Shown here: positions 1 through 10,753 of the stretch, piece by piece
Position numbering within the stretch: position 1 is the first letter of the stretch
Layout of the letters: every line of letters starts with the position of its first letter
NCBI GenBank assembly: GCA_023105745.1
Contig: JALGQZ010000011.1
Location: 35,096,594-35,160,593 of the forward strand
Direction: 5' to 3'
DNA: 64,000 nt
Origin: Austropuccinia psidii
Lineage: Eukaryota; Basidiomycota; Pucciniomycetes; Pucciniales; Sphaerophragmiaceae
The notes under the pieces: model-generated
What the model saw: only the letters and a program-made list of their open reading frames with translations
Databases searched by the model: none
What the model was told of the DNA's origin: nothing
Made by a program: the position numbers and the translations under genes

Positions 1-339
1 GGTCATCCCAACACTTGCAAGTTACTCAATGGATGGCATCCATTGATGGAAAAGAAGAATATGATGCTTTTAACAGCAGAATGGAGGAAAAACAACCCTC
101 CACCACCAAAGAAAGTGCCAAGACCAGCCCCAGTGGCCAGAAGCAGCAATTCCAATGTGAAAAAGCAACCACAAGCTCAAAACAAGGGCAAAGGGAAGGC
201 ACCAGCCCCAAATCCTTACAGCCAGGGATACAGGATTCCAAAGATTCAGAAGGATGCCATGGAAAATGTATTTCAGATGGTCAGAACCATGATGGAATTA
301 CAGAAGAAGGAGGAAGCCAGATTAAGAATCCAGAAATGA
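1..339 (+). pseudogene. E1 gag, first reading frame (C-terminal part)
   Basis: The frame is open from the window start to TGA at 337-339; its beginning is upstream of the window. The product is basic and rich in Pro, Lys, Gln and Asn, then carries a helical segment around YRIPKIQKDAM that recurs in the first gag frames of E2 and E3. This is the N-terminal domain of a Ty3 structural protein, probably RNA-binding and disordered. The stop overlaps an ATG in the next frame (ATGA at 336-339), and the remaining gag continues in the -1 frame. The same relative frame change occurs in E2 and E3. The other long frame over this segment (15-335) lacks the conserved residues and is treated as a shadow. 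Confidence 0.72.
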
Positions 340-1700
340 TTCCTGACATATTTGATTCCATCCCAGAGTTGTATGAAGCTATAAATGACATGAAAAAACA
401 TCTTTCTGATAAAAATTGAACCATTAGTAACAACATTAAAACAAACAGCTTGAGTCTGTGCCAAATTAATGAAACACTTATGTGTTTTGAAAAAGTTTCA
501 AGAAAAATTAAAGCTTCCAATAATGATAATTCTATTGGCAATAAAATAAATGACCAATCTGCCATTATTAAAGAGTTAACAGACAAATATTCTAATTTCA
601 ATATTGACAACATAATTGAAACAAGAATTAAACAAGCCATAAATATTACCAAGACAGATAACAAGAAAGTCCTTGATGACATTTCAAATTTGTTTACTGA
701 AGTAAAGACATATACCATTTCCTTGAAAAAGTGTTTTGATGCTTCACAAGAAGAAGTATCAAAATTATCAATGAAATTTAATCAAGTCACTGCTGATAAT
801 ACAAGACAGACAGAGTTATGGCAAGAACTGACACATAAAGAAGACATGTATAAAGCTTAAGTAATAAACTTAATACAAGCCTTCCAACATGAATACAGGA
901 ATTCCCAAAGGTGTAACAACAGTAAAATGAATGATATTGAACAAATACTGAACACCTTACCAAGAATGTCTACACCTCTGAATCAAAATGAGGGCACAAT
1001 AATCCCAAATCCACAAGTATTGTATCCTGATAATTCACAGTTAAAAAATGAATTATCCACTTCTTTTCATAACTTGGAACCATCAATGGGCCAAGCAATT
1101 TTGAAAGAAGTACCAAAACTTAAAGAATGGCCTCACTTCAGTGGTGAAGGAGAATATGACCATATGGAATTAATCAGAGGAATTGAAATGATTAAAGAAG
1201 ATTTTTAATTACCAGACAGATAGGTAACAGCAAGATTTAATACCTTGTTTACCAGATCAGCTCACAGATGGTATATCAAATTAAGACAAGCACATGGACA
1301 CCAAAGTTGGACTTGGTGGAAAACCCAAATTAGAAAAAATGGGCCAATGATTCTTGGAGATTTAAAGTGGAGACGGCCTTTGAATCTGCCAAATTTAATG
1401 CTGATAAAGACAAAGCTTTACCATGGTTTTGCCAACAAAAAGACAGACTAACAGTATTATACCCCAACATGTCATAATTTATGATCCACAGAAAGATTCT
1501 GAGACAATGTGAAGGTGACTTAGAGCATGCTTTCAAAAGCAGGACTACTGAACAATCTTCAGCAGAGGATATTATCAATATATTAAAAGAAGTAACCACC
1601 AGAACCAAAATTGGTTCTAGTAGGATGAATCTCAAAACAAGGTCTAATACACCTTGGAAAGATTCTGTGGACAAAAACCCCAAAGAAAATTCTAATAATA
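336..1700 (+). pseudogene. E1 gag, second reading frame (coiled coil and capsid-like region)
   Basis: Starting at the ATG at 336, the frame carries a coiled-coil-like region (about 450-860) rich in Lys, Asn, Ile and Leu, then a capsid-like region. Recognisable blocks are WPHFSGEGEYDHM (about 1128-1166), RWYIKLR (about 1269-1289) and a tryptophan-rich WTWWKTQI block (about 1312-1335). It is homologous to 24974-26188 in E2 and 46030-47250 in E3. In-frame stops lie at 417-419, 858-860 and near 1206, and there is a one-base frameshift near 1340 in an A run. The protein would form the retroelement particle. The Harbinger element cuts the gene at 1700, just before the CCHC knuckle, which lies at 7783-7824. 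Confidence 0.78.
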
Positions 1701-1727
1701 GGGGGTGTCAAAGTTACCAAATCCCAC
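1701..1727 (+). repeat. Harbinger left terminal inverted repeat
   Basis: This matches the reverse complement of 7722-7748 at 26 of 27 positions. It begins GGGGGTGTCAAAGT and ends in AAATCCCAC, which is also the first copy of the subterminal motif. Confidence 0.95.
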
Positions 1728-1885
1728 ACTCAAAATCCCGAGTTTTTTTTGCCAAAATCCCGCATTAATTTTTTGGGATTTTAGAAATCCCACACCTCAA
1801 GAGGTGAGGTATTTTGGGGTACAAAAACACAGGTTTTTTGGTACCAAATACCATGTTTAAATACCAAAATCCCACCTTTAGCTTC
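1715..1885. repeat. Harbinger left subterminal motif cluster and 5' flank of the transposase gene
   Basis: About six copies of AAATCCCR or its complement YGGGATTT fall within 170 bp of the left end. The same motif crowds the right end (7595-7735). Such subterminal arrays are typical binding sites for the transposase or its MYB-like partner. The rest of the stretch to the transposase start at 2040 is AT-rich with no gene. Confidence 0.7.
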
Positions 1886-2039
1886 CCATAAAGGCACATT
1901 TTTCAAACACACAACTCAGTAAGGGCATGTTAAATTGCATAAAAATTTCCTTCTCTTGCATAAAATCTAAATACGCTCATCATTTATTAAGTTATTTGAT
2001 TTCAAATTGCATTTACTACCAGCCTTTTCTTCATTTACC

Positions 2040-3286
2040 ATGCCCAAGGCATCGCAAAGGATACCTTTACTTCAGAATTTGAGCTCACTTCAGTTCATTG
2101 ATGCTCTCAGCTCTGATAGTGATTCTGATATCCAGGAAGATATAATCTTATTAGATATGATAACATCACAAAGATACATCAATCCTCGTAGAAGATATCC
2201 ATCTCATTACATGTATACAATGAATGATTTACAGAAATTATCATCTGAAAAGTTTCGGCAGCTATGTAAGACCACACATGAATCATTTGAAAAATTGGTT
2301 TCACAAATTCAAGCTGATAAAACCTTTTGAAACTCATCACAAAACAAACAACACAATCCTGCCATCCAATTGGCTGTGGCATTATCAAGGCTAGGATCAA
2401 ATGGAAATGGGGCCACTTTGGGAAAGATTGAAATGTTGTTTGGAATTAGCCATGGGGCTATTGTGTTGTACACTCAAAGAGTCATCCAGATATTAATGAA
2501 GTTGAAGTGCAAAGTGATTGTGTGGCCAACAATAGAACAACGCAGAGAGATGTCTCAAGTAATGCAAGAAGAAGGCTTCCCTGGGTGCATTGGGTTTATT
2601 GATGGGAGTCTCATACCATTATCACAACGTCCTCCCAATGATGGTGAAGCGTATTTTGATCACAAAAAAAGGTAAGCTGTTGAATCTTTATTCTTTATTT
2701 CAATCTTACTGATGGTTTACATATAAGGTATTCTATGTCAATACAACTGGTTTGCGATATCAACAAACAGTTCACTGCTCTGCATGTTGGTTGTACTGGG
2801 TCACTTCATGATTCGAATGTCTATCAACATATGAAAATAGCACAAACACCTCAAGAGTTTTATGAAAAGGATCAATACTTACTTGCAGATTTGGCATATG
2901 CAAGCTCTCCTTGGGTTGTTCCAGCATATAAGGGAGCTGTAGCACATAATGAAGACAACCGTTCTTTCAATTACTGTCTAGCAAAATCAAGGGTCAGAAT
3001 TGAGCATGCAATTGGAATTTTGAAGGGGAGGTGGTTTTCTCTAAGGGAAATGCGAAATTAAATGAGGGATAATCATGAAATTGAATATTTTGTTAGTTGG
3101 GTTGTGTCTTGCACGATATTACATAATATGTTAGCTCAAATTGGTGATGAGTGGTTTGAGTTATATGAAGATGATGATCCACCACATGCGGAAAATCTGG
3201 CCAACAATGACATTGGGGAAGATGTGGTAAATATGTGTGAAAAAATTAAACCCATCACTTTGGCATGGAAAAATAGTCTATTGTAG
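2040..3286 (+). pseudogene. PIF/Harbinger DDE transposase (DDE_Tnp_4 type), two nonsense codons
   Basis: This is the endonuclease that cuts and joins the element's ends. The first exon is 2040-2671, the intron 2672-2727 (56 nt, GGTAAGC..TAAG), and the second exon starts at 2728; the reading phase is kept across the junction. The catalytic acids are the first Asp in GFIDGS (about 2603), the second in LLADLAY (about 2880) and the Glu in RVRIEHAIGILKGRW (about 3005). TGA at 2328-2330 and TAA at 3059-3061 lie in frame with conserved sequence on both sides, so this copy is inactive but recent. A Ser/Asp-rich N-terminus precedes the helical region. The ATG at 2040 (MPKASQR) is the first in frame near the conserved part. 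The gene ends 87 bp from the convergent dioxygenase gene. Confidence 0.92.
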
Positions 3287-3373
3287 ATTTCATCAGGACC
3301 AATGTTTCATAAACTTAATTTATTGGCATACAACGGAGTGGAGATGTTATTCATAAAATAAAAGTATTTATAA

Positions 3374-4632
3374 TTAAGATTTTTTAGTTCTTTTTTGATC
3401 CTGCATATTTCTTTCAAAGTACCCATTGAATCTTGAATTAATTTCGGTGGGTGTCATTTTCAATAATTTGTCACCTACATTAAATAATTTATGGTTTATT
3501 TGAAAAGAACATCAAAAATGAGCAATTTCATCATGATTGATAATTTCTGGAGGTGGTTTTGTTGTATGATGAACCATTGTTGATGTCTTCCAAAGAATTT
3601 CCATGATTCCAGGTTTTTTTGAAAAATTGATCTCCATTTTTAATTCGGGGAAGTGTAAGCCATGTCCAGAGGGGGTGAAGATAGTAGGAAGTGGAAGGAA
3701 ATATTTTTTTGATACAAAAGAAAATATACCATAAGTCCAGGCATTGAGATTGTTTAAATCTTTGTGTGGCTTATTGAAAAATCCATCTTGGGTGACAATG
3801 ACATTGGTAAAAAATTTAAATTCTTCCTTGGGATTGGAAGAAGTCCATTCAAGTTGACTGAAGTTGGGTAATTGGGCTGCTTCCATTAATGATTGATTTT
3901 CATTTTCTGCTAATTTTGAAAAATGGGAGATTCTTGAGTAAACAAATTCGTCATATTGATGAAGCTTGATCCATTTATTGTTATCTGTTTCAATTTGATG
4001 AGGAGTTAAACCGGGTTTTCTAGAGTAAACACCTAATAATTTTGTAATTAGTCAGTAATTATTAAGGTAATATGCCAAAAATATGACACACCTGCAGATT
4101 TTCCAGCATCAGAACAAGATCAAAACCCAATACCTTTCATAATTCCACCTTGGAGTTGCTTATTGGTTTTAATTTCTTGTTGATTTTGAGATAAGGACAT
4201 TAATGTCATGATGATGTTTTGCAGAATTTGAGAGTGGCCAGAAGAATTATCAAATGGGGTTATTTCATATATGATTACAGGAAAAAACGGCTTGGATGTT
4301 TTATTAATGAGGATATAAGGATGGGGGAGAGTGTTAAGTGATGGAAGTTTTAATCATGAGGCATTGGAAGATTTCTTGTCAATCGAAATTGTTGAAAAGT
4401 TTTTAAATTCATTTTTGGAATGGCCAAGGTGAGACATTATTTATTTTGAATCATGGATGTGTTGTCTTTGGCTTTGGGTGAGCTTTCTTTTATTATTTAA
4501 TTTGGTATTATTATCCTCATGATGTTCTATATTTGGTTTAGTCCTAACCATTACATCAAGAGGAGTAATATGAGCTTCATCATCTTTCAAATCACTCTGA
4601 TGATGTGCTGAGTCTGGTTTAGTCCTAACCAT
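3374..4632 (-). pseudogene. TET/JBP-like 2-oxoglutarate/Fe(II) dioxygenase carried inside the Harbinger element
   Basis: Enzymes of this family oxidise methylated or thymine bases in DNA. Read on the minus strand, exon A runs from about 4632 (or the ATG at 4437) to 4092, the intron is 4091-4033 (GTGTGT..TTAG), and exon B runs from 4032 to a TAA at 3374; phase is kept. Family marks: a PFDNSS block (about 4280), GGIMKGIGF, then the core GFFNKPHKDL holding the iron-binding His-x-Asp (His 3764-3766, Asp 3758-3760), WTYGIFSF, FPELKMEINFS, GIMEILW and VHHTT with the distal His (3566-3571), and CSFQIN near the end. In-frame stops occur at 4443-4441, near 4345, near 4113 and at 3514-3512, all inside otherwise conserved sequence. 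The N-terminal part repeats MVRTKP twice and may not be translated. The family call is from motif memory, not a search; activity of intact copies is inference. Confidence 0.75.
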
Positions 4633-5160
4633 GACATCATCAAAATGATTGGAAGAATGAGAGGGAGGAGGAGATTTTTTTTGATTTTAAGGATGATGGA
4701 AGGGATGGGAAATGAAATGACATTTCAAAATAAATTCTATTAATTAATCCTCCCCTATATGAACAAATAAATAAAAAAGAGAAACAAAAATTAAAATAAA
4801 AAATCAATCAAGGGTCAGTAATGATTATAATCCCAAAAAATTAAAAAAAGGAAAAAAAAATATCATTATCAGTAAATGATTTTTGAAATAAAATAAAAAA
4901 AAATCATCAGTGTTAAATAAATCATTATCAGTCATAGATTTTTGAAAGAAAATAAATGAATAAAAAAAATCCAAAAAAAAAAATTAGTAAGATAGTATTC
5001 AAAGTCAATAAATGAATAATAAGAAAAAAAAATTGAGATCAGTTTCCAAATTCCAGAATCGAAAAAGAAAAAAAAGAGTAATGAGAATTTTAGAAAAAAA
5101 AAAAAACATCAGTATAATTTTTTATTTAAATGATATAATTAAAAAAAAAATGAAATAATC

Positions 5161-5328
5161 ATTCTAATGGCCTCTAGGGGCCATTAGAGTGATGAAGAAG
5201 TAAAACAATGCCCAATCAATGTGGAATCAATTTGGGAGGCCTTCTGAATCGATTCCAAATTGATTCGGATTGATTTTAAGGTCTCAGGCCCTGGAACCTC
5301 CCAGGAGCCTATTTGGGAGGTTCCAGGG
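5161..5328. repeat. Cluster of three consecutive inverted repeats
   Basis: First: ATTCTAATGGCC (5161-5172) with its inverted copy at 5179-5190 (11 of 12). Second: GAATCAATTTGG (5224-5235) with a perfect inverted copy at 5255-5266. Third: CCCTGGAACCTCCCA (5289-5303) with a perfect 15-base inverted copy at 5314-5328. Spacers are 6, 19 and 10 bases. The island is GC-richer than its surroundings. It could be the remnant of a nested small element or a cis-acting structure of the transposon. Confidence 0.85.
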
Positions 5329-5339
5329 TTAGTGAGGTG

Positions 5340-5392
5340 GATGGTGATGGGTGGGTGAGTTGTGAATGATGATGGTGATGGGTGGGTGAGTT
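5340..5392. repeat. Two-copy direct repeat, 31-bp spacing
   Basis: A 22-base G-rich unit beginning GATGGTGATGGGTGGGTGAG occurs at 5340-5361 and again, identical, at 5371-5392, with a 9-base spacer. Confidence 0.9.
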
Positions 5393-6250
5393 CGGGAGGT
5401 GCAAAAAATTGAATAAAAAAAATTACCTATATAAAACTAAAAAAAATTTAGCAAAAGATGGTTATGATTAAACAAAAAGAAGAGAAATTCACTTACCTGA
5501 ATTTTAAAAAAAGTGGGTTTTTGTTTAGAGGGAAGTGTGAAGAGTGAAATTAGAAAAAAATTAATTGAGAATTAAAAATTAAAATTTAAAAAAAAAAATT
5601 AAAAAAAATTGGTGATTTTTTTTCAAGAGGGAGGGGTAAAAAGTCAAAATGATAAAAAAAAAGTGAAATTTAAGATTTGAAATTAAAAAAAAAAATTAAA
5701 AAAAAGGTGTTTTTTTTTTAAATTGGAGAGGTGAAAAGTAAAAATAAAAAAGAATAAATTAAAAGAAATTAAAGAAAAAAATCAACTTTAAAAAAAAAAT
5801 TAAAAATTAAGAATCAAAAATCAAAAATCAACAAAACAAGGGACATTTCCCAATTAAAAGTTGAAACCCTTCAAACTGAAAAAAACAAAATAACCATTAA
5901 ATTAAAAAAAACATATAGAAAAAGATGAAAAAATTAAAAAAAAACCATAAAATGACATTTTCATAAAAAAGGAAAAAAGCCATCATCAAATTTGATCTTT
6001 GAACAGACTTCATATAAGTTCTCAATGCAAAACTTGCCCAAATTTTCCAATCTGTCTGAAATTGAAAATAAATGTCATATGAAATTGAAATTGCAAGTTG
6101 GTGCCCCAATTATGCGTAAACATTGAAATTTCCACTTGGTAATAAAGTGGAGTTAGATTTCATGACATAAGATCAATCATTAAACATAAACATAAGATTT
6201 ATTGAACAAGCACCACATATAAATTGATCACATTACATATATGTAATAAG

Positions 6251-7470
6251 TTATTTTTTATTGATTAATGCCAGAATGCGTTCCAGCTCCCTGATTGGCC
6301 TGCTTGATGACAATGTTGCTATAGTGAGATCCATCTGGCATTGCTTTTCCTTCAATTCCAATTCACGATTCCACTTTTCTTTTTCAAATTCATATTGCTT
6401 TGCATGTTGCTTCTCCTCAAACTCCATTTGCTTTTGCAACTTGACTTCTTCAAACCGTTGCTTGCTTTCTCTTCATTCCACCTCTCCCTGTCCCACTCCA
6501 AACGAGCATTGTCACTGGTTTCACGGGCTACAAATCATGAATTTAGTCAGTGGGATTGATCAGAGTAGCCATAATTCCAAAACATACCCTTTTGCCATGA
6601 TTCAAGCAAACTGGCATATGTTGGTGCAAACATATCCATTGGCCTTTTCCTAGAGCCACTCTTGTCATTCAAGTTGGGTGTCAATGCTCAATTACGCTTT
6701 TGTGTTGAATGTATTATGGATTTAATTTGCTGTTCAAAGGAGAAATAATCAACAATGGATTTCATAAGTATCAGGCTTAAACATACTTACTGATTCATCT
6801 TGAAGGTTTTCCGCTTGAATCAAGTCATCTTCATTATGAACCAAAGGAACAAGATTGAGAGGTGATTCCAATCCATTATTCTCCTTTAAAAAGCACATGA
6901 ACTTTAATTATCACAGGTGAAAAAGGAAGAGACAATAACTTACCTCATTGGGAAAAACATCATCATCATCACCATTTAAGCTGTCTTTTGCTTGTGAATC
7001 ATAGCTTGCAACCGGAGTGACATTGGGCTTGTGGCCAAAGAGCCCATCCATTTCAGCATAGAAAGGACACATACTTTCAAGCTTTTCACTCATTGACTTT
7101 ATTCCTTTACTCTCATCTTCTTCCGTTATTCCAGCCCCAGTTAAATTCTCAAATTTCTTTGCTGCCATATATTTCTTTTTATATGTTCTCCATTGATCTC
7201 GGATGCTGCTTGAACTAAGGTTTAGTCAATTACGTGATTTTTTGTTGACCTCAATCGCCATAAGCTGAAATCCATGCTGCTTTGATGAGGGAGGTCTTCC
7301 AATAGTTGTTGAACCACTAGTACCAAAACATGACTCTAAATTGGCTTTGACTGAAAGCCAATTAATTATGGTTAAATAATCTGTACGTATTAAGTGACCT
7401 GATGGATGAGGCAGGCTAGAGGTGATCTTCATATCTGTCTTGATTTGTCTTGCTTTGGATTGAGGCATTA
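6251..7470 (-). pseudogene. Harbinger MYB/SANT-like accessory protein gene
   Basis: In Harbinger elements the second protein binds the element ends and brings the transposase to them. On the minus strand exon 1 starts at about 7470 (MPQSKARQ) and ends at 6944; the intron is 6943-6884 (GTAAGT..AAAG, 60 nt); exon 2 is 6883-6791, with a good GTAAGT donor at 6790. Later exons lie at about 6730-6595 and 6530-6251. Marks: a DYLTIINWLSVKANLESCFG helix, SSSIRDQWRTYKKKY (third SANT-like helix region), then CPFYAEMDGLFGHKPNVTP and an acidic tail. The C-terminus is a charged coiled coil rich in Glu, Lys and Gln, ending at 6251. TGA at 7228-7226, a TGA in the third segment and a one-base shift near 6470 break it. 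It is close to and points away from the right end. Confidence 0.8.
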
Positions 7471-7589
7471 TTATATGGATGAAGAAGTATAAATGGACTG
7501 TAAGCTGTTTGTTCAGATTGTCCAAAATGGAGTGTAGAAGAATATGTTGTGCAGGTATGAATTGTGAGTACTATTTTGGGTTAGGTTTC

Positions 7590-7735
7590 AAGCTGAAATC
7601 CCAGATGCATGGGATTTGGTCAAAATACCAGGGGACTCAGTTAAAATGCCATGGGATTTACACATAAAAAACCCGGGATTTAGTGTTGGGATTTGGGGTC
7701 CAAATCCTGTGTTATTTTAAGGTGGGATTTGGTGA
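7590..7735. repeat. Harbinger right subterminal motif cluster
   Basis: TGGGATTT or its complement AAATCCCA appears about seven times, mirroring the left end. With the left cluster it gives a symmetric array facing inward from both terminal repeats. Confidence 0.7.
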
Positions 7736-7748
7736 CTTTGACACCCCC
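7722..7748 (-). repeat. Harbinger right terminal inverted repeat
   Basis: The reverse complement begins GGGGGTGTCAAAGTCACC and matches the left terminal repeat with a single T/C difference. It is followed directly by the target copy TAATA and the resumed E1 gag. Confidence 0.95.
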
Positions 7749-7753
7749 TAATA

Positions 7754-9036
7754 AGTATAAATCTGCAGATACAGTCAGAAAGTGCCATATTTGCCAAAGC
7801 ACCACCCATCTAACCAATACATGTCCAAAAAGGGGGAAAATGAATGAAATTGATATTGAAAAGGAACCTGATGTTGGAAAAGATGACATAATTGAAGACA
7901 ATTCAGATGATAAGTCATCAATATTTTCTGAATCTTCAAAAGCTATAGAAAATATTAATGCCACTTTTGACATCATGGAATCTTATTCCCACTTGCCACA
8001 ATTGAGCAATGGTCAACTTGATTTATCAAAAGTTCAAGATGCACAACTTATGAAAACAAAACCAAACAGGGGGAAAGGTTATACAGCTGGTAACTCCTGT
8101 ATAACAGAAGTGGTGATTGACAATAAGCCCACTAAACTTTTGCTTGACCCAGGAGCCTTCTGCTTTTGTGTTGGTAAATCTTTTCTTAAAACTTGTGCAA
8201 CAAATTTTGAAGACCAATTGTTACCAATTGATGGTATAAAATTCAATAGTGCAAGTAATCCAATGAAAGAATTGGAAACTTTTGAGACCAATGTCATATT
8301 CCCACACATTAATGGGAATTTAAGAATCACAGTTGAATTTGTTGTTATTGAAAACTGCTCTAGTACCCATTTTATATTGGGAAATGATTATTTAATCATG
8401 TATGGGATAGATTTTCATAAAAACAAATACAGATACTTTACTATTGGAGACAATAAGAATCAGAAATTTTCCTTTTTATCATTTAAAAGACAAATTACAG
8501 TAAATAAAGTATCACCAGTCAACTTAGAATTGGAAAAATTCAAATCTGAACAGTTGAGGGAGGCTGAAATAAGCCTTCATCTGACTGATAAACGAGAAAA
8601 TGAACTTTCTTCCCTTTTGTATGACCACAAAAGAGCATTTGCTTCAGAAAAAGAACCTCTAGGAGCAATTATTGGTCATGAAGTAGACATCAATCTTAAT
8701 ATTGAAAGACCTTATCCACCACTCTTAAGGAGACCTGCATACCCAGCAAGTACCAAGTCAATAGAAGCTCTGGAAACGCATATCAAAGAACTTCTAGACC
8801 TTGGTGTAATAAGAAAGGTTGGCCACAATGAAGAGGTAGAAATAACTACACCAGTCATAGTGGCATGGCACAACGGAAAATGCAGAATGGTTGGAGACTT
8901 TAGAGCTCTGAACACTTACACTGTTGCAGATAGGTACCCAATACAAAATATCCAAATTGCCCTTACTCAAATATCTCAAGCAGTGTATATAACAACTATG
9001 GATTCCCTAAACGGATTCCATCAAAATTTAATACAG
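7754..9036 (+). pseudogene. E1 nucleocapsid, aspartic protease and N-terminal reverse transcriptase
   Basis: The frame is open without a stop from the Harbinger junction to about 9060. A CCHC zinc knuckle (CHICQSTTHLTNTC, 7783-7824) packages RNA. An acidic linker follows. The retropepsin region has LLLDPGAFC at 8137-8163: the catalytic Asp-Thr-Gly is Asp-Pro-Gly here (8146-8154), which should abolish or impair cleavage. The flap and the second conserved block IILGNDYLIMYGID-like (about 8363-8412) follow. The RT begins with the conserved YPPLLRRPAYP block (about 8711-8743), DLGVIRKVGHNEEVEITTPVI, then GDFRALNTYTVADRYPI and MDSLNGFHQN. At about 9037 the sequence jumps to the end of RNase H, so the RT palm with its catalytic YxDD is missing. 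Confidence 0.92.
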
Positions 9037-10753
9037 AGGCAATATGACTATTGTTCATAAAGATGGGAATATTCATAAAAATGCAGATGGACTAAGCAGA
9101 TGGCCATTACCAAATGATATTCATAATCCTGCTTATGTGCCAGAAGAAGCTCCACCACATATCCCAATAGGAGAAATAAGTGTTACAGACGCAAACAGCA
9201 CCTTCTTTGAAGAAGTAAGAAACAGTTACACTCAGGATAGGAATTGTAGCATCTTATGCCAACTACTTAACAAAGACTGTAAAGACAACTCTCTAATACA
9301 TGCCTTGGATGAAGTATGGAAGAAATCTTATGATGAAGGAAGATTTCACCTGCTGGATGGTATAATTTACCACAGGACCAAGCACACATGTGTCATGACA
9401 GTTGTGGACAGGTCATTAATCAATCTTGTACTGAAAGAATGCCATGACAGCCCCTTTTCAGGACATCTGTCTGAAGACAGAACAAGAGAAAAAGTGAAAA
9501 CCTGTATATGGTGGCCAATGTGGCAGAACGATGTTGCAGAGTATTGCAAAACCTGTGACAGATGCCAAAAGGCAAATAAATCCACTGGCAAGAGACTTGG
9601 AAATATGATCAAAATACAAGAACCCAGCAGACCTTGGGAGATTGTCCATATAGATTGGCTAACTGGCCTACCACCAGGGGGTGACAGAAGTTATAACTCT
9701 TGCCTAGTGACTGTAGACAGATTCAGTAAAATTCCAATCTTTTTACCATGTCACAAAGATGATACAGCCATGGATACAGCTCTTCTAATATGGAATAGAG
9801 TAGTGTCATGGACTGGAATATTTACAAATATCATTAGTGACAGGGATCCCAAATTCACTTCAGCACTATGGACAAATATTCACCAATTATTTGGCACTAA
9901 GGTGTTTTTCTCTACAGCCTACCACCCACAAACTGATGGTCTGGCTGAAAGAATGATCCAGACCTTAGAGGACATGGTAAGAAGATTTTGTGCATATGGC
10001 CTTGAATTCAAAGATTGTGATGGATTTACCCATGATTGGTGTGCTCTGTTGCCAGCACTGGAATTAGAATATAAAATTTCAATCCATGCCAGTACCAATC
10101 AAACTCCTGCTATCCTAGAAAATGGATGGAACCCCAAATTACCTCAAGATTCCTTGAGGGAAGATTTGATTGAAATACATCCCACAGCTGCTAGCTTCAA
10201 GGGAATGCTAGAAAAAGCTAGAAAGCATGCAGTAAGGTTCATGGAAGACTCTTTTGCATATGCTAACAACAAATGGGATAAATCACATACAACTCCAGAT
10301 TCCAAAGTGGGGGATTTAGTTCTTGTATCCACCACTAACTTCAATAACATCAAAGGATGTAAAAAACTGAAAGACTCCTTTGCAGGACCTTTTGTTATTA
10401 AGGCCCTCCATGGAGAAAATGCGGTTTAAGTAGAGTTATCTGAAGAACTTAGCAATAAGCATCCCACATTTCCAGTAAGCTTGATAAAGCCATATAAATC
10501 TAGTGATTCTGAAAGATTTCCCTTGAGGAATAGAGTTCCCCAAGCTATACCTCCTATTGAGTCATCTGGTAGTAAGAAAATTACCAAAGTTCTCAAAGAA
10601 AGGAAGTTGAGAACCGACAAAGTAAGGGAATATCTTGTTAGGTACAGTGACCCAACTTGTGAAGATGAATGGTTGCCAGCAAAAGACATACCTGAAGCTA
10701 CTAAACTTCTCAGAACGTTCAGGCACACTAGAAATAACAATATTACACAGTAA
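9037..10753 (+). pseudogene. E1 RNase H tail, integrase and chromodomain
   Basis: The frame picks up at [22 protein letters not shown], the RNase H end. The integrase zinc domain (His-His-Cys-Cys around [20 protein letters not shown], about 9440-9570) and the catalytic core are intact: Asp at 9653-9655, Asp at 9839-9841, Glu at 9947-9949, giving D-61-D-35-E spacing. The C-terminal part has a chromodomain-like block REYLVRYSDPTCEDEWLPA (about 10627-10683) that in chromoviruses guides insertion to marked chromatin. One TAA (10427-10429, from a likely Gln codon) interrupts an otherwise open frame of about 570 codons. It is frameshifted relative to the upstream protease-RT frame by the RT deletion. 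Confidence 0.93.

Follow-up and report, generated by a model that had tools for sequence, protein, structure and literature searches.

A TET/JBP-type gene with histidine at the presumed 2-oxoglutarate-binding position in a PIF/Harbinger-type transposon family of Austropuccinia psidii

Transposons that carry TET genes are informative about how mobile elements survive silencing by the host, here in a gigabase-sized fungal genome whose transposons are methylated. PU-type TET/JBP genes have been described in seven transposon lineages of rust fungi, and that work lists fifteen TET-bearing families of Harbinger elements, found in P. graminis, P. striiformis, P. triticina, P. coronata, P. hordei and A. 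psidii (Kojima, Biology, 4 December 2025; PMC12730594). The PHISTA elements, named after their TA duplications, also encode a third protein, which according to the same paper has a Myb/SANT domain in none of them, and the role proposed there for the PHISTA TET is escape from methylation-based silencing (PMC12730594). The pairing of TET and Harbinger, for which the original prediction made on the locus analyzed here knew of no description, is therefore already known, having been published in 2025 for A. psidii and five Puccinia species. Beyond that paper, no other on TET-bearing Harbinger elements was found among the matches listed in the open-licence PMC literature.

The family described here resembles TET+ PHISTA in combining a PIF/Harbinger-type DDE transposase with a TET/JBP gene and one further gene, in the TA at its junctions, in its host and in the function proposed for the TET. 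It differs in that its empty sites mostly favor a 3-bp AWT duplication and its third protein looks Myb/SANT-like by fold. The likeness is to the published description and not a family-by-family match to the fifteen. With CcTET of Coprinopsis cinerea and the AG-type TETs of KDZ transposons it shares the TET/JBP superfamily, the HxD...H triad and the link to a transposon, but KDZ is a different transposon superfamily, and CcTet has Arg385 for 2-oxoglutarate (2OG) where the presumed equivalent here is His. In the cited sections of PMC11040006, R385 of CcTet forms salt bridges to the carboxyl numbered C1 in that paper, and the R385A form is inactive. R1896 of TET2 and R289 of NgTet1 hold the C5-carboxyl of a 2OG analogue, and CMD1 of Chlamydomonas, a TET homologue that lacks a usable Arg at this place, uses vitamin C (PMC7854593, sections cited). 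The present family is like CMD1 in apparently having no usable Arg for the 2OG C5-carboxyl; it differs in that CMD1 has an aligned Arg410 pointing away and Trp358 in place of the Arg. Nuwa and canonical PIF-Harbinger elements likewise join a DDE transposase to a Myb/SANT-type partner and make a 3-bp duplication (here probable), whereas the present family carries a TET gene in addition, and the Myb/SANT similarity of its partner lies under the Pfam cut-offs.

The window, a stretch of 64,000 nucleotides from A. psidii, contains a 6,048-bp element nested within a Gypsy-type LTR retrotransposon (Table 1). The two 22-bp ends of the element agree at 21 of 22 bases, and siblings read through to both ends measure 6,058–6,264 bp (n = 5). 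The interrupted Gypsy copy gives, over 9032–10426 and together with Integrase_H2C2, an rve match (E 6.1e-7) slightly below the cut-off. Three genes lie in the element, the transposase on the plus strand and the TET/JBP-type and third genes on the minus strand, with the TET/JBP-type gene in the middle. The transposase, with a probable intron near 2671–2727, scores 67.5 bits against DDE_Tnp_4 (cut-off 24.8), as expected of PIF/Harbinger transposases, and this match and the 22-bp terminal repeats bear out the 6.05 kb Harbinger element of the original prediction. The other mark of the superfamily, terminal repeats with a duplication of 0, 2 or 3 bp, is also present, flank bases being repeated in 18 of 18 insertions. 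As had been claimed, the TET gene lies inside both terminal repeats (3374–4632 within 1701–7748) and is convergent with the transposase, the stop codons (3284–3286 and 3374–3376) being 87 bp apart. The window copy is inactive, for both frames are interrupted, that of the transposase by two in-frame stops and that of the TET gene by four, none of them noted before. The A-rich non-coding middle (4690–6200), which holds repeats of ~95 bp at about 5500–5800, diverges far faster than the coding parts.

Table 1. Positions of the transposon, its genes and its surroundings in the window
Feature	Position	Strand	Basis or remark
Gypsy retrotransposon, 5' part, interrupted by the element	1..1700	+	L056 flank contains a relative of this site that is not interrupted
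Left AAT of probable 3-bp target duplication	1697..1699	.	Element then starts with A at 1700
PIF/Harbinger-type (PHISTA-like) DNA transposon, inactive copy	1701..7748	+	22-bp terminal inverted repeats GGGGGTGTCAAAGTTACCAAAT
Left terminal inverted repeat	1701..1722	+	Search with first 200 bp: best 40 of 1,583 first-look candidates scored
Transposase gene, DDE_Tnp_4	2040..3286	+	Pfam E 1.3e-18 on 2684–3061
TET/JBP-type gene (PF20515), two exons, four in-frame stops	3374..4632	-	Pfam E 6e-25 on 3512–4051
Longest open stretch of the TET gene	3512..4051	-	Contains HxD and distal His
Third gene, with a probable Myb/SANT-like domain at the N-terminus and a long helix at the C-terminus	6251..7468	-	Open frames compared with relatives
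Right terminal inverted repeat	7727..7748	-	
Gypsy retrotransposon, 3' part of the same copy	7749..10753	+	Integrase_H2C2 E 8.9e-19
Right AAT of probable 3-bp target duplication	7750..7752	.	Element then ends with T at 7749

In a search of the 1.015-Gb genome (84 contigs), the first 200 bp of the element yielded 1,583 first-look candidates, the best 40 of which were scored, with 41 matches listed at 89–100% identity; for the TET exon, the best 40 of 1,635 first-look candidates were scored. Among the matches listed, left ends and TET exons are 95–100% identical, apart from one left-end neighbor at 89%. From the 40 other left ends, seven copies were fetched nearly whole and 20 for the right junction, 13 being left out; with the TET interval fetched for eight of the 20 as well, 15 siblings were available for the TET gene, those scoring highest against the window copy and not a random sample. 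TET pieces stand at the expected place in 14 of these 15, and the transposase, TET and third genes are all present in the seven copies fetched nearly whole. The exception, L041/L090, lacks element positions 237–2644 through an internal deletion that took most of the TET gene along with the transposase. The flanks of L066 and L089 are the same, and the two are probably a single insertion in a duplicated stretch, which makes 13 of 14 distinct insertions with TET. Several siblings also have in-frame stops in the gene. In the copies sampled, the TET gene is a stable part of the element and not a chance insertion in a single copy, and a TET/JBP gene inside the element, the feature that marks TET+ PHISTA, is thus found in 14 of 15 siblings. 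The same count, from a sample picked by similarity, addresses the earlier question of how many full-length relatives carry the gene in the same place. Of the 163 inverted-repeat pairs, the 25 longest include none that would form the ends of another element around the gene.

The junctions were read in 18 distinct insertions, the window copy and 17 siblings. Of 27 sibling insertions tried (seven nearly whole, 20 by the right junction), seven were dropped for want of a right end in the interval, L061 and L064 because they run past the end of the stretch, and L040 as a duplicate of L066. All 18 have TA at either junction, and in 17 the base that follows is shared as well; if the element is taken to start with A and end with T, 16 show a 3-bp duplication of AAT or ATT. 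On the published TA reading, the window junctions would be TA at 1699–1700 and 7749–7750. Uninserted paralogues of the L056 site (two) and the L063 site (three) are gapless on the 3-bp model, and on the TA model they require a gap of 3 bp. One more paralogue of the L063 site (L074, 75%), the fourth, fits the 3-bp join alone and was left out of the count. The sole paralogue of the window's own site fits TA in length and lies in an AAT-rich stretch. Four ambiguous empty sites were assigned to neither model: L044 and L048 because of simple or tandem repeats, L067 at 74% identity, and L052, which is one base longer than the 3-bp model and two bases shorter than TA. A target duplication of 3 bp (AAT/ATT), rather than the published TA, is therefore what we consider probable.

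In the window copy the third gene is interrupted by a frame break and by one or more in-frame stops. The original prediction had called it MYB-like; its place is as described and the predicted fold and structure matches are Myb/SANT-like, but the match to Pfam Myb_DNA-bind_4 is below the cut-off. On the predicted fold, the third protein is a probable Myb/SANT-like DNA-binding partner of the transposase. With a 3-bp duplication and such a partner, PHISTA may be an ordinary Harbinger and not a separate TA-duplicating lineage. Just past the right end of one sibling (L065, 6889–7359) lies a more divergent gene related to the third gene (41–43% identity), perhaps part of another Harbinger family.

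The profile search agrees with the TET/JBP-type gene predicted at 3374–4632 on the minus strand: PF20515 (2OG-FeII_Oxy_6) matches 3512–4051 with 88.9 bits against a cut-off of 27 (E 6e-25), and the motifs quoted in the prediction, HxD and the distal His among them, are present as described. The predicted product is a member of the TET/JBP superfamily, with 110 relatives of the main exon from 118 candidates, 108 named Austropuccinia psidii MF-1; its modelled structure is poor (pLDDT 40.6). Residues were aligned against another TET lineage of the A. psidii genome (loci L001–L030), with which the HxD and the distal His align, so that the HxD...H iron triad is kept. The Arg of FTRLSMS in that lineage, however, aligns with the His of ITHFGCSFQ in the Harbinger lineage, and the longest open stretch of the window copy terminates right after this His. 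This Arg is found in 26 of the 30 loci, many of them near-identical copies of a few subfamilies, the remaining four lying outside the motif pattern. The His, encoded by CAT, is present in all 15 DNA copies (window and 14 siblings), and the relatives with a readable motif (n = 38) have His (32), Asn (2), Tyr (2), Pro (1) or Gln (1), and never Arg. Because the spacing after the distal His equals that of the residues equated in the papers, we infer that the position corresponds to R1896 of TET2, R289 of NgTet1 and R385 of CcTet. The alignment of the family position with human TET2 itself is our assumption. The Arg for the distal 2OG carboxyl expected of 2OG-using TET dioxygenases thus appears to be absent, its equivalence being drawn from alignment and spacing. 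Since this Arg is His in the family (15 of 15 DNA copies, 32 of 38 readable proteins), even though the iron triad stays, "5mC eraser" is an unsafe label; the substitution could mean altered or no oxygenase activity. The eraser of cytosine methylation that the original prediction saw here is accordingly at most a putative one, given four stops in the window copy and the family His at the 2OG-Arg position.

Indications, not proof, that selection has retained the TET gene come from the main exon, with a dN/dS of 0.35 in the window and 14 siblings (40 codon bootstraps, 5–95% range 0.22–0.59), compared with 0.67 and 1.16 for its shifted frames and 0.58 for the antisense control, which the bootstrap range just reaches. 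Its coding bias is near that of the transposase core, with a dN/dS of 0.27 (eight copies; 0.17–0.52; antisense 0.52). The short N-terminal piece, at 0.52 (0.33–0.95), is indistinguishable from its own +1 frame (0.50; +2 frame 2.17), and a non-coding stretch treated as codons gives 1.26; all values come from pairs of copies, which are not independent. Mean identity among eight copies is 0.972 for the main exon versus 0.884 for the non-coding stretch 4690–5400.

Six whole copies were compared, a position being counted as a CpG site when two or more of them have CG there. Of 71 such sites, 54 read TG or CA in some other copy, compared with 46 of 783 other C sites that read T. Of the counted CpG positions, 29 survive in the window copy and 32 are lost; the other copies keep 47–55. 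Within the TET domain, a codon containing CpG is preserved in five of 15 copies, a stop in six and another residue in four, the latter two being the products expected from deamination on either strand. A. psidii transposons are 5mCpG-hypermethylated, with 5mCpG measured in young ones (PMC12774611, sections cited), as the original prediction had supposed of the host, and in the light of these measurements we read the decay as a methylation scar. The CpG observed/expected ratio is 0.25 in the element and 0.02–0.09 in the flanking Gypsy parts, a difference that is no evidence of protection because the element inserted later than the Gypsy. As the copies have decayed at CpG, protection of inserted copies by the TET gene is not visible.

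We regard it as likely, although unproven, that the window holds a dead copy of the published TET+ PHISTA kind and that the TET of this family is a self-serving anti-silencing enzyme. Members of the family code for a DDE transposase, a putative iron oxygenase of the TET/JBP superfamily and a probable DNA-binding partner that is Myb/SANT-like; in an active copy, the TET-like protein would oxidise or otherwise engage 5-methylcytosine on element DNA, methylation-based silencing would thereby be delayed and transposase expression made possible, and after silencing the copies would decay via CpG deamination. The PF20515 and DDE_Tnp_4 matches, the 14 of 15 siblings, the main-exon dN/dS and the CpG hypermethylation of the host count for this reading, as do the same element type, host and functional idea in the cited sections of PMC12730594. 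The His at the 2OG-Arg position, the heavy CpG decay, a bootstrap range that reaches the antisense control, an N-terminal piece no better than its +1 frame and the low pLDDT count against it. To the published link are added the apparent lack of the 2OG-binding residue, which casts doubt on the eraser reading, the CpG decay documented in copies whose own element encodes the supposed eraser, and the signs of a 3-bp duplication and of a Myb/SANT-like partner.

Of these points, the His substitution could change the anti-silencing reading. A TET-like protein that is no longer a 2OG oxygenase, and either uses another cosubstrate, as CMD1 uses vitamin C (PMC7854593), or binds 5mC and hides the mark, is a less likely alternative but one to be taken seriously: His stands in every DNA copy and in 32 of 38 relatives with a readable motif, 26 of 30 loci of the other lineage in the same genome have Arg, R385A inactivates CcTet (PMC11040006, in the sections cited), and the coding bias of the exon speaks against a dead gene. 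His may, however, carry a positive charge and might still hold 2OG, and the correspondence to TET2 R1896 comes from alignment and spacing, not from a structural model. If true, the Harbinger-borne TET would be a CMD1-like or non-catalytic 5mC protein acting against silencing, and not a standard eraser. That the gene is passive cargo, spread with the element and functionless in its life cycle, seems to us improbable. Stops in the window copy and in several siblings, a short piece with the dN/dS of a shifted frame and the reach of the main-exon range to the antisense control would fit such cargo, but a main-exon dN/dS near that of the transposase, the higher identity of the exon than of non-coding DNA and the finding that several transposon lineages have captured related genes (PMC12730594) do not. 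Nothing was found in favor of an independent TET-bearing element having landed in the window copy by chance, an idea to which we give practically no weight: 14 of 15 siblings have the gene at this very position, the 25 longest inverted-repeat pairs include no further pair of ends around it, and insertion into a single copy is ruled out by the siblings.

Genome-wide, PF20515 gave 7,499 first-look candidates, and all 150 that were scored exceed the cut-off; TET-like loci in A. psidii may number in the thousands. The highest-scoring and mostly uninterrupted genes (L001–L003, L016 and L096, the last lying with L001 at G000:C5:15824800-15833424) belong to the other lineage, are about 24–27% identical to that of the window, and form single-exon open reading frames of about 390–396 residues adjoining pieces of cellular genes. 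Beside L001, on one strand, are a Cys/Met PLP enzyme, a GHMP-kinase piece, which by its motif we take to be mevalonate kinase, and VPS13. L002, L003 and L016 also have the Cys/Met piece next to them, the stretch in common being >99% identical, and the loci of this lineage look like parts of a gene-capturing TET+ element. Other TET loci, L012 (1–306) and L026 (2940–3449), are flanked by a piece of a sterol-sensing domain (1.2e-5) and by a START-like piece whose match is weak and under the cut-off (0.004).
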